Part shown: positions 1,118-60,134 of the stretch, piece by piece | Layout: each line of letters starts with the position of its first letter | Position numbering within the stretch: the first letter of the stretch is position 1 | NCBI GenBank assembly: GCA_944323265.1 | Contig: CALURX010000002.1 | Location: 1-64,000 of the forward strand | Length of the DNA: 64,000 bases | Direction of reading: 5' to 3' | Origin: Candidatus Gastranaerophilales bacterium | GTDB lineage: Bacteria; Cyanobacteriota; Vampirovibrionia; Gastranaerophilales; Gastranaerophilaceae | Notes under the pieces: generated by a model | The model's database searches: none | Told to the model about the DNA's origin: nothing | What the model saw: the letters and a program-made list of their open reading frames with translations, nothing else | Translations under genes and position numbers: made by a program

Positions 1118-3565
<2,448 letters not shown>

Positions 3566-7191: not shown

Positions 7192-7267
7192 GGGGGTTTA
7201 GCTCAGCTGGTAGAGCACCTGCTTTGCACGCAGGGGGTCAGGAGTTCGAATCTCCTAACCTCCACCA
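7192..7267 (+). tRNA. tRNA-Ala (anticodon UGC), prophage integration site
   Basis: A full 76-nt cloverleaf can be drawn: acceptor GGGGGTT/AACCTCC with the alanine identity pair G3-U70, D arm GCTC/GAGC, anticodon arm CCTGC/GCAGG with loop TTTGCAC (anticodon TGC), T arm AGGAG/CTCCT around TTCGAAT, and an encoded CCA. The integrase gene of the prophage ends inside the 3' acceptor strand on the opposite strand. Confidence 0.97.
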
Positions 7268-8814
7268 TTATAATCACTCTCGAACACATCGAGAGTGTTT
7301 TTTATTGACAATTCTTTAGTGTCATTTTCTCCGCAATAGTTATATCCTATAAGAATTTTGTCTGTTTTCTCGTTTATGATTATGCAATTTACAAAACTGT
7401 CAATAATTTGGCGTTGAAAAGTAGGATCTGATATATCTTTATTTTTGAAATTGTTTAAATAAAATATTAAGGCCTCTTTTGTTACTGATGGCGCATCATC
7501 TTTAAATTTTTCAGTTTTTATTCTAAAATCAATATCCCGTTTGGTTTGTTCTAAAGTTTCTAAACGTTCTTTTGTTGATTCTGTATAAATACCGTTTTCA
7601 ATAGCCTTTAAAATATTTTCAATTTTATTTTCTATTTCCTTTTTGTTTTTTTGTAATGTAAGTATAAATGTATTATCCTTTCTCTCCTCCTGCAAAAGTT
7701 CAACATTTTTAGTTAAAAATTCATAAACTTTATCTGTTAAAACTTCCTCTTTTGTAATTTTAGTAATAAATCTTTCAAGTTTTTCTTTGGGGTATGATTT
7801 TGCCCGGCACTTTTTACTTAATGTTTTATTCTTTTTATTACAACAGGTGTAATAATAGTATTTTTGTCCTGAACGGCTTGTGCCGCTATCTCCAGTCATT
7901 AAGGAATTACATAAACCACATAACAACTTACCGGATAATAAAAACTCTACATTTTCTTTGTTTTTACGAGGTTTTGATGCTCTTTTATTAAGTTCCATTC
8001 TTTTACCTGCCTTTATAAATAATTCTTCAGTAACAATAGGTTCAATTACATTTTTGTATTCAAGCACTTCAACTTGTTTTTGTTGTGTAACTTCGTCTAA
8101 ATATGTATGATTAAATATGTATGTACCAATATATTTAGGATTTGTAAGCATTTTTGTTAATGAATTTCGTTTAAATTTTTTCCCGAGGGACGTTGTAATT
8201 CCACGACTATTTAAATCATTACATATATCAATAGCGGCTTCACCTGCGGCATATCTTTCAAAAATTTCCCGAACTATTGGAGCATTTATAGGGTGCGGAA
8301 CATACTTTTTATCAACAACTTGCAATCCAAATGGCACAACTCCCCCTACATGGTGTTGTTGCAAAGCCGCATCGTACATTCCACGACCTACTTTTCGGCT
8401 TAATTCTTCACTGTAATATTCGGCCATTCCTTCAAGGACGCTTTCAAGGATTATTCCTTCTGGCCCTGCCGGGATATATTCTTTTGCAGAAATAAGTCTT
8501 GTGCCGGCTTTTTTTAGTTCATTTTTATATCGTGCTATATCGAATTTATTACGACTAAATCGGTCAATAGTATAAACATAGACAATGTCGTACAAGCCCT
8601 TTTTTACATCTTTTATGAGTTCAAGAAATGCAGGCCTTTTATCATTTTTACCGGTTAAATGCCTATCAATATATTCCTTGCGAATAATTGCATTTTGGCT
8701 TTTTGCTTTAGCATAACATTCTCGTCTTTGTCCGGTAATACTTGCCTCAGTTTGGTCGGGTCCTGGAGAATACCGACCATAAAATGCTGCATTATATATT
8801 GGCTTGTTGTTCAT
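7255..8814 (-). CDS. int: Large serine recombinase (phage integrase)
   Basis: This 519-residue enzyme has the large serine integrase plan: a resolvase domain with the nucleophile Ser16 (FYGRYS) and DRFSRN motif, a recombinase DNA-binding domain (FERYAAGEAAIDICNDLNSRG, about residues 190-290 overall), a zinc ribbon with CGLC, CC and C ligands around 300-345, and a long coiled coil after it. It catalyses attP x attB recombination through a serine-DNA intermediate. Its last codons overlap the 3' end of tRNA-Ala, so the frame crosses the attachment core and may change when the phage excises. Its aaaggagg ribosome-binding site lies in the upstream gene, with which it overlaps by 4 bp. Confidence 0.95.
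   Translation of the reverse strand: MNNKPIYNAAFYGRYSPGPDQTEASITGQRRECYAKAKSQNAIIRKEYIDRHLTGKNDKRPAFLELIKDVKKGLYDIVYVYTIDRFSRNKFDIARYKNELKKAGTRLISAKEYIPAGPEGIILESVLEGMAEYYSEELSRKVGRGMYDAALQQHHVGGVVPFGLQVVDKKYVPHPINAPIVREIFERYAAGEAAIDICNDLNSRGITTSLGKKFKRNSLTKMLTNPKYIGTYIFNHTYLDEVTQQKQVEVLEYKNVIEPIVTEELFIKAGKRMELNKRASKPRKNKENVEFLLSGKLLCGLCNSLMTGDSGTSRSGQKYYYYTCCNKKNKTLSKKCRAKSYPKEKLERFITKITKEEVLTDKVYEFLTKNVELLQEERKDNTFILTLQKNKKEIENKIENILKAIENGIYTESTKERLETLEQTKRDIDFRIKTEKFKDDAPSVTKEALIFYLNNFKNKDISDPTFQRQIIDSFVNCIIINEKTDKILIGYNYCGENDTKELSIKNTLDVFESDYNGGG
7257..7269. other. Left attachment core (attL), 13 bp
   Basis: The 13 bases aacctccaccatt at the 3' end of tRNA-Ala recur exactly at 58204-58216, next to another serine recombinase relic. 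The last 10 bases plus one (tccaccatta) also recur at 54999-55008. Serine integrases need only a 2-bp identical core, so the exact crossover point is not defined by the repeat. Confidence 0.75.
7275..7304. terminator. Terminator beyond tRNA-Ala
   Basis: The 9-bp perfect stem CACTCTCGA/TCGAGAGTG (7275-7283, 7289-7297) with loop acaca is followed by seven T residues. On the plus strand it would end the tRNA-Ala transcript. It lies inside the 3' end of the integrase gene on the other strand. Confidence 0.8.
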
Positions 8815-9534: not shown

Positions 9535-9903
9535 TTATTTTTGGCAGTTTTTCAGAACTGTAAGAACTGTTAATTGAGCATTTCTTGTAGCATTTCTGAA
9601 CATTTTTATAATTTCAATTTCATTCGGTGTAAATCTAAGTTTATTTTGTGTTGGCAACCCGAAAAACGTTGTAATATCAACTTTATAAATATCACATAAT
9701 TGCAGAAGCACATCACCGTAAGGTGTTACCTCGCCATTTTCCCATTTACAAACTGATGCCGGGGATTTGTTAATTTGTTTTGCTACTTCACGCAAACTCA
9801 ATCCTGCATTTTCACGACACATTTTAAGACGGTTTGGCAGGTCGTCAGTCATGGGATTTGTTACTTTTTCTTTAGATTTTTTCATTTCAGTTAACACCTC
9901 CAT
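9535..9903 (-). CDS. Phage CI-like repressor (XRE family)
   Basis: The 122-residue protein contains an XRE helix-turn-helix domain, RLKMCRENAGLSLREVAKQI then SPASVCKWENG, at about residues 26-80. The remaining 40 residues may carry dimer contacts. There is no peptidase domain, so it is not a LexA/CI-type self-cleaving repressor. It is divergently transcribed from the Cro-like gene at 10059 across a promoter-operator region and heads the operon containing the integrase. An alternative start at 9885 (MKKSKEK) is possible; the annotated ATG has gaggtg-like sequence within the frame rather than before it, so the shorter start fits slightly better. Confidence 0.85.
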   Translation of the reverse strand: MEVLTEMKKSKEKVTNPMTDDLPNRLKMCRENAGLSLREVAKQINKSPASVCKWENGEVTPYGDVLLQLCDIYKVDITTFFGLPTQNKLRFTPNEIEIIKMFRNATRNAQLTVLTVLKNCQK

Positions 9904-9967
9904 AGATTAAATATAGCAACTAATTTAATAAAAAACAAATATTTTTAAACAAATATTAAAAAAATAC

Positions 9968-10031
9968 TTGACTTTTTTTCAAAATTGGTTTAATGTTGCA
10001 CATGTTAATTCAAATGAAACAAGTTTCATTT
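9968..10031 (+). promoter_or_regulatory. Early rightward promoter and operator of the lysogeny switch
   Basis: TTGACT (9968-9973) and TAATGT (9991-9996) are separated by 17 bp and would drive the Cro-like gene and probably the structured RNA region beyond. Just downstream is a perfect dyad, AAATGAAAC at 10012-10020 and GTTTCATTT at 10023-10031, separated by 2 bp, a likely repressor/Cro operator. Two copies of aaacaaatatt (around 9934-9957) lie on the repressor side. The binding assignments are inferred from position. Confidence 0.7.
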
Positions 10032-10058
10032 AATTAAACAAGAAGGACAAGAGAATAT

Positions 10059-10280
10059 ATGGCAACAATCGAGGAAAAGGTACAACAATATTTAGTTAAA
10101 AACGGAATTACACAGGTGTTTTTTGCTGATTTAATAGGTATTTCAACAGCAAATGTCGCTGCAATGTTTAAAGGCAAGCGCAGAATGAAGGCAGATGAAC
10201 TTATAAAATTCTGTGAACACTATGGCTTAAACATTGATTTCTTTAAAGAGCAAAAACCAACCCTTCAGAGGTGTATATAA
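10059..10280 (+). CDS. Cro-like small helix-turn-helix protein
   Basis: This 73-residue protein is little more than one helix-turn-helix domain: VQQYLVKNGITQVFFADLIG, ISTANVAAMFKG, then KADELIKFCEHYGLNIDFF. Its size and place, first on the rightward side of the operator, fit a Cro or an early activator. The ribosome-binding site is aaggaca. Its stop codon overlaps the next ATG by one base, so the two are translationally coupled. Confidence 0.82.
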   Translation: MATIEEKVQQYLVKNGITQVFFADLIGISTANVAAMFKGKRRMKADELIKFCEHYGLNIDFFKEQKPTLQRCI

Positions 10281-10438
10281 TGGACATTCAAGTGGACAAA
10301 ATACCGGCAACGGAAGCAAAACTGCTTGCAATGGCACTTCTTGATGGGGCTTTAAAATTTTACGAAGATCCCAAAAATGTCCAAGCCTTCAATGAATGGC
10401 TCAGACAAAAGAATTCAAAGCAATCAGCTTTAATTTAA
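10280..10438 (+). CDS. Small early phage protein (52 aa)
   Basis: A 52-codon frame starts at the ATG that shares its A with the stop of the Cro-like gene (TAATG). The product begins MDIQVDKIPATEAKLLAMAL and ends LRQKNSKQSALI; it is helical with no recognisable domain. Tight coupling and sensible codon use make it a likely real gene. It is the last coding sequence before the long structured non-coding region. Confidence 0.6.
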   Translation: MDIQVDKIPATEAKLLAMALLDGALKFYEDPKNVQAFNEWLRQKNSKQSALI

Positions 10439-11291
10439 GCATAGATTTATGCACATTGAAAATTAAATACCATAAGACGACTGATGCGGAGTAGCACCGT
10501 TAAACTTTGACAAAGTGAGCCGGGAGCGAAAGCTGTGAACAGCGCAGGAAAACAATGTATAAAAATTTGTGTTTTTATATTTGCCGGAAAATGGAAACAT
10601 TTTTCCGGCATCCATAAGGACATAAATTCCATTGATGTATGAAAAAGGAAAATGGAAGTAAGAAAAGAGGGGACCATTCTTTAACCGGTTTTCTGAGGAT
10701 CGGACCCGTAAATTGCAAGAAAACTGGCGCTTACTCTTCGAGCGATAGAGAAATTAGGTGAGGAAACCATGAGCCAACCGGAGAAATAAATGCAAAAACA
10801 CTACTCCTAAAAAGTGTTTAGGCGCAGTCGCCGGTGAGGGAATATCCCTCACCGTGGCAGGACGGCAATAAAAAGAATTGTTTTGTTGATTGTCACAAAA
10901 TCAACGGCAGGGTGAGGGTAAGCGTTATGACTGCCAGAACAAATACTAACGCAGGTCAGGATAAACTCCAGCCGCACGGACTAACCTCGTAAAAAAATGG
11001 GTATGTTGCGGCACTTAAAATAAAATCCAGCGAGGGGAACAACAGGCATGGTTATATGCAGATTTGCTGCAGGATGGCTGACATCTTTTAAACAGTTGAC
11101 CGTAGGGAAAGGCCTACTGCCTGCCCCATTTTTTAATAAAACAACAACTTGGAAAGACAAGTAAGTCGGCAAACTGACTTAAACGAAAGGCCCAGAGTGT
11201 CCGAGGTGGACACCCTTACGAATGGAGGATTTGGACGGCACCAAGGGATAAAAACAGACATTCTGACAGCCCGGAAAGACGGGTATTTTTA
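10439..11291 (+). ncRNA. Candidate giant structured RNA (~850 nt)
   Basis: This stretch has no plausible gene on either strand but is packed with stems: 10439-10452, 10504-10516, a GAAA-capped stem at 10525-10534, a 10-bp stem 10582-10591/10601-10610, a 10-bp stem 10685-10694/10718-10727, a possible H-type pseudoknot at 10798-10822, a 10-bp stem 10832-10841/10845-10854, 10885-10905, 11057-11071, 11102-11117, 11147-11162, 11197-11213, and 11270-11283 followed by tattttt, a likely terminator. A 10-bp long-range helix (10992-11001 with 11125-11134) closes a multibranch domain. Two hairpins share the loop GAAAGA. Length, phage setting and ornate folding resemble the GOLLD and ROOL classes of giant phage RNAs, but I cannot show membership. 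It would be transcribed from the promoter at 9968 or its own. Confidence 0.7.
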
Positions 11292-11319
11292 ATGCTTATG
11301 TTAATTGGAGGAAAGAAAT

Positions 11320-11742
11320 ATGTCAAATGTTATCGAAATGAATCAATTTAAACCACAAAAACAGCAGATTTATGCTCCTATACAGTGGGTAACAAATTTA
11401 TTTGAGGTAAAAATAAAAGATTTTAGAGAGCGAAAAAAGAGAAAAATTGATGCTTTGTTAAATGCAACTTATGATTTTTATTTAGATTTATATTTAACAG
11501 GTGTTGAACAAGATAAATTAGTTGATATTCACCCTGCCCTTTATAAAAAGAGATATACGATATGCACGCTTGCTTATTATCAAGCATTGCAGGCTTTAAT
11601 TCCAATATTAGAACAAGGTCGTATAAATGAATGTTATAAAAATTTGCAAAAAATGTTGAGGGAAAGAGAAAAGGAAAAACAAAAATCTAAAATTAATTCA
11701 AAAATTATTTTTCCTCGCAGAAAAGTATTTGCGTGTAATTAA
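11320..11742 (+). CDS. Hypothetical early phage protein
   Basis: I do not recognise this protein of 140 residues. It is basic, helical and lysine-rich with a charged C-terminal segment (REREKEKQKSKINSKIIF) that suggests nucleic acid contact. The ATG at 11320 is preferred to an upstream TTG at 11305 because ggagg sits at 11307-11311, inside the longer frame. It is the first gene after the structured RNA and heads the replication operon. Confidence 0.65.
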   Translation: MSNVIEMNQFKPQKQQIYAPIQWVTNLFEVKIKDFRERKKRKIDALLNATYDFYLDLYLTGVEQDKLVDIHPALYKKRYTICTLAYYQALQALIPILEQGRINECYKNLQKMLREREKEKQKSKINSKIIFPRRKVFACN

Positions 11743-11753
11743 GAGGAGATTGT

Positions 11754-12527
11754 ATGAGCGAAGAAATCAAACCGGCTTTTTATGCAATCATACCTGCAGA
11801 TGTCAGATATGATAAAAGTTTAAAACCTAATGCAAAATTGCTTTATGGTGAAATAACCGCACTTTGCAATGAAAGAGGTTATTGTTGGGCCGGGAATGAA
11901 TACTTTGCCAAACTGTATGGAGTTAGTATAAAGACAATATCGGCTTGGGTTTCACAATTAGTCGATAAAAAATATCTTCATAGGAAATTGGTTTATAAAC
12001 CAGGAACAAAAGAGATTGAAGCAAGAATACTGAGGCTCCCAATACCTTATCCCCTATCCTTTGAAAACGGCATACCCTCTCCACAAAATAATGGAGAGGG
12101 GGAAACTCCTCAAAACGGGGATTTTAACAAGGAAAATAAAGAAATACCCCCCACCGCTAAAAAAGGGGGAGGTATCCCGAAAAAGAAGGAAGAGAATATT
12201 ACATTAGAATATATAAATGAAGTATTTAATAATAATGAGGTTTTGAAAAAAAATCAGAATTATATACCCTTAGTATTGGAGTGGCTCAAATATAAAAAAG
12301 AAGAGAAAAACCAATACTATAAGACAACCCGATCCTTGACTGCGTGGATTAAAAAATTGATTAGATTTTCCGGCGGCGATTTAAAAATTGCTGAAGAAAT
12401 TATTGAAAATTCAATGGCAAATTTATGGGACGGAATTTTTGAACTTAAAAATAATAAATCAAAACCTGCAACTATAGATTTTACTCCTCGCAATGTGTCA
12501 CAACAGCAAAAATATGGGGGTTTTTGA
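11754..12527 (+). CDS. Phage replication initiator, winged-helix/DnaD-like
   Basis: The N-terminal 110 residues form a helix-turn-helix domain of the phage replisome-organiser type: PADVRYDKSLKPNAKLLYGE, ITALCNERGYCWAGNEYFA, VSIKTISAWVSQLVDKKYL. A proline- and lysine-rich linker follows, then a C-terminal domain (about 160-240) with SLTAWIKKLIRFSGGD and NSMANLWDGIFEL reminiscent of DnaD-type domains. Such proteins bind the phage origin and recruit the helicase loader. The gene for an AAA+ loader follows with a 1-bp overlap (TGATG), which supports this. The ribosome-binding site is agaggag. Confidence 0.82.
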   Translation: MSEEIKPAFYAIIPADVRYDKSLKPNAKLLYGEITALCNERGYCWAGNEYFAKLYGVSIKTISAWVSQLVDKKYLHRKLVYKPGTKEIEARILRLPIPYPLSFENGIPSPQNNGEGETPQNGDFNKENKEIPPTAKKGGGIPKKKEENITLEYINEVFNNNEVLKKNQNYIPLVLEWLKYKKEEKNQYYKTTRSLTAWIKKLIRFSGGDLKIAEEIIENSMANLWDGIFELKNNKSKPATIDFTPRNVSQQQKYGGF

Positions 12528-13315
12528 TGATACAACAAAGAATAGATGAGCTTGCAAAACTTGGCTCTAAAATAATCGGCCCGAGAATAAGTGAGGGGCA
12601 TTGCGTATTTTGTGGCAATGAAGTTGAAAAGGGTGGTTATTGTTATTGTAAAAAAGCAGAAAAAATCAACACGCAGGTTAGAAAACTAAGAAAACTGATT
12701 AATAAATATGGCTATATTACAGATTTAAAGGAATATACTCATGAACAGATAATAGAAGCCCATTTCCCTAAAAAATTTGCCGGAATGGGCTTTGATGATT
12801 ATATAACTGAGACTGATGAACAAAAATATAACTTACAAATAATAAAAAATTATGCAAAAAATGCCCTTGAACACTATCTACATGCAACTAATCTTATATT
12901 TGTTGGTCATTTTGGAAATGGAAAAACAATGTTAATGAGTGTTGCAGGCGATGAAATTATAAGAAAATTTGGCATACAAGTAAAATATGTCAATATTTAT
13001 GATCTGGCAGAGGAAATAAAAAAGACTTTCAACGATAAAAACAAATCTGCATCTGCAGTTATAGAGGGTTATAAAAAAGCACCGATATTGATACTTGATG
13101 ATATAGACAAGGTTAACCCTTCTCCTTTTATGATTGATTTGATGTATGGATTTTCAAACTATCGGGCCGAAAATCAACTACCAACCTGGATAAATGCAAA
13201 CCATTCACTCGAAGATTTATCAGATAAATTTTACCAGGAAGGTACAATTTCAAGATTTTTTGAAAATAGTATTAAGGCTAAATTTACCGGTATAAATTGG
13301 AGATTGAGAGGCTAA
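12527..13315 (+). CDS. DnaC-like AAA+ helicase loader
   Basis: An N-terminal zinc-binding stretch (CVFCGNEVEKGGYCYC, about residues 27-42) precedes an AAA+ ATPase domain with Walker A GHFGNGKT near residue 127 and Walker B PILILDDIDK near 188, followed by FMIDLMYGFSNYRAENQLPT. This is the DnaC/DnaI organisation; such proteins load the replicative helicase at the origin. The true start is the ATG at 12527, sharing its A with the stop of the initiator gene. Confidence 0.9.
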   Translation: MIQQRIDELAKLGSKIIGPRISEGHCVFCGNEVEKGGYCYCKKAEKINTQVRKLRKLINKYGYITDLKEYTHEQIIEAHFPKKFAGMGFDDYITETDEQKYNLQIIKNYAKNALEHYLHATNLIFVGHFGNGKTMLMSVAGDEIIRKFGIQVKYVNIYDLAEEIKKTFNDKNKSASAVIEGYKKAPILILDDIDKVNPSPFMIDLMYGFSNYRAENQLPTWINANHSLEDLSDKFYQEGTISRFFENSIKAKFTGINWRLRG

Positions 13316-50682: not shown

Positions 50683-50802
50683 GCTAATTTTATAAATACT
50701 TACAATGTAAATTATTGTCCTCGCCCCTTGGCGAAAATCAGCCGAAAAAGAGGCATGGATTAGTAGCAGAGTTGAAAGTCCGTGAGGCATTAGTAAGAGA
50801 TA

Positions 50803-59939: not shown

Positions 59940-60134
59940 GTATAATCCTTATTATAAAAAAGACTCGCTGATTTGAGCATTGTTAAGAGGCTTAGCGAGT
60001 ACTATTAATATAATTGTAACATAATTTTTACTTGAATGCAAGATTAGTTATTATTGAAAAATTTTATCGCATAGAAAGTTAACAATACTTCACTAAGTAT
60101 TTTAATAGCTCCAATATATGTTATAATAGAATAC

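Follow-up and report, generated by a model that had tools for sequence, protein, structure and literature searches.

The window analysed here, a 64,000-nucleotide stretch of a Candidatus Gastranaerophilales contig, contains a prophage that adjoins a tRNA-Ala gene. On the minus strand the prophage encodes a serine recombinase (7255-8814) and a divergently oriented CI-like repressor (9535..9903; HTH_3/HTH_31 in Pfam and repressor PHROGs), and on the plus strand a Cro-like HTH protein (10059..10280; HTH_3 in Pfam) and a small protein (10280..10438, the open reading frame being called from 10271) whose counterpart in a related prophage, L010, is 50% identical. A gene-free stretch (10439..11291, plus strand) separates the small protein gene from that of a basic protein of 140 aa (11320..11742, plus strand), which is 37% identical to its L010 counterpart and is followed on the same strand by genes for a replication initiation protein (11754..12527; phrog_19658, phrog_270) and a DnaC-like helicase loader (12524..13315; phrog_50), RecU also being among the early genes downstream. 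The stretch is thus situated after the early promoter and 5' of the early operon. In both phages the protein directly after it is basic and all-helical according to a predicted model of low confidence (pLDDT 66.6); no match to the 140-aa protein was found in Pfam or PHROGs, and we regard it as a candidate partner of the RNA described below. Elsewhere in the window, Rfam matches to RT-18 RNA (a retron-like reverse transcriptase RNA; 50722-50797, plus strand) and abiF RNA (59963-59999, minus strand) were observed, which would point to the presence of defence elements.

The first-pass annotation had described 10439-11291 as free of credible genes and rich in stems, and both observations were borne out. 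The longest open reading frames starting at ATG, GTG or TTG measure just 52 aa on the plus and 76 aa on the minus strand, while comparison with the homologous region of L010 gave no protein-coding signal, as 14 of the 15 internal indels would shift the reading frame and substitutions are spread evenly over the three phases (43/45/42) without codon periodicity. At -248.2 kcal/mol, the minimum free energy of the plus strand is lower (z = -4.1) than that of sequences shuffled by dinucleotides (-208.0 +/- 9.7 kcal/mol), the minus strand folding just as strongly (z = -4.35), and 23 perfect stems of at least 6 bp are present as against 7.3 in the shuffled sequences (shuffle maximum 14).

The homologue was found on an IMG/VR contig (L010) that had been reached through a search with the replication initiator. 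It is non-coding, occupies the same place in its prophage (L010 3237-4140/4540) and is 76% identical to the window over 757 nt (E 1.5e-130), in an alignment starting inside the upstream gene. The L010 sequence is also present in the metagenome-assembled genome "Cyanobacteria bacterium SIG32" and in a genome of the same family as the window, which points to a host among the non-photosynthetic cyanobacteria of the gut (Gastranaerophilales). The shared 5' ~590 nt are more conserved than the neighbouring proteins (37-67% identical between the window and L010), and for this part RNAalifold returned 118 base pairs of which 16 are compensatory, as compared to 8.0 +/- 1.9 after shuffling and at most 2 when the pairing partners were slid, these values being drawn from two distinct full-length sequences and from a structure derived from the same alignment. 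The homologue in the same position and the covariation support the earlier proposal of a giant structured phage RNA.

Several of the individual helices recur in L010. At the 5' side, the invariant element TAAGACGACTGATGCGGAGTAG (10473..10494), a part of which (GTAAGACGAC) is also present in the leader of a further prophage locus, L153, may pair with the core (helix 1). The hairpin GCCGGAAAATG / CATTTTTCCGGC (10582..10610, helix 5), annotated earlier as a stem at 10582/10601, is conserved with one compensatory change, the stem at 10685/10718 can still form in the homologue when read by hand, and the hairpin at 10832/10845 carries six compensatory pairs in its stem, helix 11 as a whole (10822..10866) having eight. 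A proposed H-type pseudoknot at 10798-10822 survives in part: ACACT/AGTGT is invariant, while CCTAA is changed to CATAA in L010 with the loss of one of the five pairs. A long-range helix between 10992-11001 and 11125-11134, previously thought to close a domain, is not conserved, as the 3' half of L010 differs. The most conserved part is an 84-nt core (10870..10953), where just two positions differ from L010 and where interlocked pairs GGCAG/CTGCC and GCGTTA/TAACGC can be drawn by hand from invariant sequences; this interlocked pairing is possible but competes with a long-range helix to the invariant 5' element, the two sequences being compatible with either.

Within the homologous RNA of L010 a tRNA-like element, GCAGATG...CCGGTTCAATTCCGG...CATCTGC (L010 3941-4002), was seen by eye; it was not called by ARAGORN, and a tRNA-like model in Rfam matched weakly in antisense. 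A further RNA module, GGACCTTGAACCCAYAGGA...TTAGACAAA, is located inside the giant RNA of L010 (4260-4345) and stands alone between two genes in another prophage locus (L151 4826-4908), in both instances preceding the 3' hairpin described below; no credible Rfam match was obtained for the L010 module or for the similar, separate L151 RNA.

A covariance model of the core (R1) identified no third homologue among 383 genomes of the family and 382 of the class, recovering just the window and the SIG32-type phage; likewise, the true homologues obtained by pattern scans of viral and genome collections were L010 and its SIG32 twin, and blastn of the whole RNA against phages and plasmids gave no match. 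Protein queries with the 140-aa protein, Cro and DnaC retrieved no relatives from viral contigs, as opposed to the replication initiator, which did. Four short matches in genomes of the same genus look like chance, as the other features of the RNA are absent around them, and a match in Chloroflexi (L015) has the same appearance.

The 5' end of the RNA carries a boxA-like element, CACATTGAAAATTAAATAC (10452..10470), matching 15 of 19 positions of a consensus for the host lineage that was built solely from two rRNA sites of one genome of the same genus, namely TACCTTGACAATAGAATAG in the 16S leader and TACATTGACAACTGCATAG in the 16S-23S spacer, both of which we take to be boxA from their place and from general knowledge of rRNA boxA. 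On its own the match in the window is modest, since 118 of 5000 Markov leaders reach at least the same score (p about 0.024), and the case for boxA therefore rests on its recurrence across loci. A search for the 3' hairpin in the 383 family genomes yielded five further prophage loci (L149 to L153), and in six of the seven loci (the window, L010, L149, L150, L152 and L153) the best plus-strand site of the entire locus is at the start of the leader, with 15 to 17 of 19 positions matched, the leader of L151 being without boxA. The sister leaders begin with sequences like TACATTGACAATTTAATA, and after its boxA L152 shares AAAGCGTA-A--CG with the 16S-23S spacer of the host rRNA. L149, L150, L152 and L153 each encode a repressor-like protein on the opposite strand, and in each a noncoding leader that contains boxA and hairpin precedes recombination or replication genes; these leaders are shorter, extending about 130-520 nt from boxA to hairpin, and the giant central module is absent from them.

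At the 3' side, the GAAAGA-loop hairpins and the terminal stem with its U run noted in the first-pass annotation proved to be real. ACTTG-GAAAGA-CAAGT (11147..11162) is common to the leaders L150 and L153, both of which have the same tandem hairpins as the window, with the ACTTG/CTTG stem first and the GCCCG/CCCCG stem second. The last hairpin, UGACA-GCCCG-GAAAGA-CGGGU followed by AUUUUU (11264..11284), belongs to a widespread phage motif: the form TGACAGCC-N-GGAAAGAC-N'-GG, in which N and N' always pair and a T run follows, was found exactly in 26 IMG/VR contigs. BLAST revealed further carriers among phages of Escherichia, Cronobacter, Klebsiella, Stenotrophomonas, Pseudomonas and Acinetobacter, a crAss-like phage, a Pseudanabaena phage and plasmids, with phage hosts thus spanning Gammaproteobacteria, Bacteroidota and cyanobacteria, the stems compensated and the copies mostly located where no gene is annotated. 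As controls, a reversed 30-mer gave 15 weak BLAST records and the reversed pattern had no site in the 383 family genomes, as compared to eight for the real pattern. A scan for any stem around GAAAGA detected additional copies in which the stem is unrelated and UGAC again comes first, and the motif was therefore defined as UGACA-stem-GAAAGA-stem. At the loci inspected it is often situated in gene-free stretches, among them 3.3 kb before the terminase of ESP2949-1, 2.2 kb on a Rhizobium plasmid, 1.8 kb on an Acinetobacter plasmid, 1.2 kb in cr55_1 and 0.8 kb in Medea1; it is also present in the tRNA clusters of Pokken and Mwe-JY26 and in the early operons of mEp390 and Klebsiella prophages, while in several IMG/VR contigs it is close to gene ends or starts instead. 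E. coli-type boxA was mostly absent beside the hairpins of Gammaproteobacterial phages, so that boxA and hairpin need not be coupled. A literature search for the hairpin sequence found no relevant paper. The possibility of a CsrA sponge, raised by the GGA in the hairpin loops, was discarded, as the motif is also present in the crAss-like phage and a Phocaeicola plasmid, the hosts of which we presume to be without CsrA, and as UGACA is unfit for this role.

Membership of the GOLLD or ROOL classes, as entertained by the first-pass annotation, was not supported: neither the GOLLD (RF02032) nor the ROOL (RF03087) model of Rfam matched 9800-11800 at E<=1, L010 at E<=10 or the window at the gathering threshold. 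As no other Rfam family fits either, the two distinct full-length sequences known of this RNA may represent a new class. The ROOL model also matched nothing in the whole genome from which the window derives, in a search whose control likewise matched nothing. The RNA resembles GOLLD as a giant structured phage or prophage RNA of over 800 nt with a modular, partly variable architecture, yet conservation lies to the 3' side in GOLLD (PMC12286853) and to the 5' side in the window RNA, which has a boxA start; furthermore, GOLLD is found near tRNA islands, whereas the one tRNA in the 64 kb is 3 kb from the RNA region, beside the integrase. With ROOL it has in common that it is a large, ornate phage RNA without a known protein partner, differing in the lack of a match to that model of 574 positions. 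An unclassified giant RNA of ~800 nt in phage ICP1 is very abundant and also occupies an ORF-less gap (PMC7567579), in that instance at the lysis cluster, and the UGACA-GAAAGA hairpin is absent from it. The region probably specifies a real structured RNA of ~850 bases at the head of the prophage replication genes, unrelated by these comparisons to the known giant phage RNAs.

Likeness to antitermination sites is of a different kind. In common with lambda nut and rRNA boxA leaders, the RNA has a post-cro position in the early operon, a boxA-like element and GNRA-like purine-rich hairpin loops, but it is ten times larger and its hairpins are hundreds of bases from boxA, the nearest GAAAGA hairpin at ~680 nt as compared to the ~10-20 nt that separate boxB from boxA in lambda; nor did any of the early genes that were compared with Pfam and PHROGs encode a recognisable N-like protein. 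HK022 put likewise consists of structured RNA in the early transcripts of a temperate phage, although with ~70 nt and two stem-loops (PMC9378689) as against ~850 nt here, and assignment to the put type was rejected for this reason. In the part of HK022 that was inspected, no UGACA-GAAAGA hairpin was seen.

Two features missed in the first-pass annotation, the rRNA-like boxA with which the RNA starts and the widespread hairpin with which it ends, suggest how it may work. The reading that we tentatively prefer, at a probability somewhat below even, is that the region belongs to the early lytic transcript of a temperate phage, of which it forms a long untranslated part; an rRNA-like boxA would there load the host Nus complex, and a giant RNA module would be embedded inside. 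RNA polymerase from the Cro-side promoter would meet boxA, NusB-S10 and other Nus factors would bind the nascent RNA as on rRNA, and the polymerase so modified would resist Rho throughout the untranslated RNA and still do so in the replication genes, with the tethered Nus complex aiding the folding of the large RNA. The region would thus be the cis-acting equivalent of a giant nut site or of an rRNA leader, its 3' hairpins serving as recognition or processing elements and its central module being an additional RNA domain that may itself have a task in trans. As a long untranslated RNA is open to Rho, and as boxA is reported to shield an extended untranslated 5' leader against Rho and to promote rRNA folding (PMC4807359), the region can be read as an early-operon leader that imitates rRNA. 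Further support comes from the recurrence of boxA, from the layout shared by four sister prophages and from a position matching that of lambda nutR, which is located between Cro and the replication genes as is the RNA region. Counted against this reading are the modest boxA of the window, the boxA-less leader of L151 and the Gammaproteobacterial hairpins that are mostly without E. coli-type boxA. Since lambda nut and HK022 put are both under 100 nt, antitermination alone fails to explain 850-1300 nt of conserved structure, and the size of the giant module together with its absence from the short sister leaders suggests a task of its own, possibly that of a GOLLD- or ROOL-like RNA, a reading with which the leader reading is compatible. 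We know of no function for the giant phage RNAs; if the present one is led by an rRNA-like boxA, these RNAs would be tied to Nus antitermination and to the RNA-folding machinery.

The main alternative, which we consider a realistic possibility well short of even, is that a discrete, stable and abundant RNA is set free from the early transcript and has its role in trans, perhaps as a homo-oligomeric particle of the GOLLD or ROOL kind, with boxA and the 3' hairpin merely serving its synthesis and 3' end. Its size, ornate structure and phage setting, the highly conserved core and the terminator-like 3' hairpin with its U run would all fit, as would the absence of the giant module, in the manner of cargo, from sister leaders in which boxA and hairpins are retained; the tRNA-like fold seen by eye in L010 recalls the tRNAs that GOLLD linkers sometimes contain (PMC12286853). 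In addition to the failure of the GOLLD and ROOL models to match, this alternative is opposed by a gene start with GGAGG ~35 nt after the last hairpin, leaving no room for a separate promoter, and the RNA is therefore probably part of the mRNA unless processed.

Phage origins often lie before the replication initiator, as does this region, and folding is as good on the minus strand as on the plus. A DNA element 5' of the initiator gene, be it a replication origin or a regulator array whose hairpins are DNA structures or binding sites, is nevertheless unlikely, given that the compensatory changes in the stems include G-U pairs, that T run and gene orientation always follow one strand, and that in the examples inspected the hairpin motif shares its strand with the gene downstream. 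An improbable explanation to the same degree is a riboswitch-like or attenuator leader that controls the replication genes and responds either to a ligand or to a protein of the phage, for instance that of 140 aa: the leader position, the terminator-like hairpin just 5' of the start codon and the basic protein directly downstream in both phages agree with it, but 9800-11800 contains no Rfam riboswitch match and no alternative antiterminator stem was identified. Chance structure or a decayed gene, at which the short open reading frames on both strands might hint, is highly improbable in view of the out-of-frame indels, the lack of codon periodicity, the threefold excess of stems and the compensated pairs.

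For the 3' hairpin, we put at slightly less than an even chance that it is a mobile RNA module of a large, undescribed group of structured phage non-coding RNAs extending across bacterial phyla, the window RNA being one of giant size that has taken over a boxA of the host's rRNA type for its transcription and folding. If so, the hairpin would be recognised either by one and the same host factor, be it RNA polymerase, a Nus factor or the ribosome, or through a shared RNA-RNA contact, and it offers a sequence handle with which many unannotated phage non-coding RNAs may be gathered and a common partner fished out. Unrelated phages and plasmids carry copies in noncoding stretches, some of these kilobases long and unannotated (L124 2502; L125, L128, L129 and L130, each at 2501; L132 2830-3022; L133 and L134, each at 3001). 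In the early leaders of mEp390 (L124 2500-2900) and Klebsiella phage P7641 (L137 2580-3100), repeated long helices GGAAGCGCA...GTGCGCTTCC precede GTTGTG near the hairpin, and one hairpin-carrying IMG/VR contig contains a hatchet ribozyme (L111 6721-6858, minus strand).
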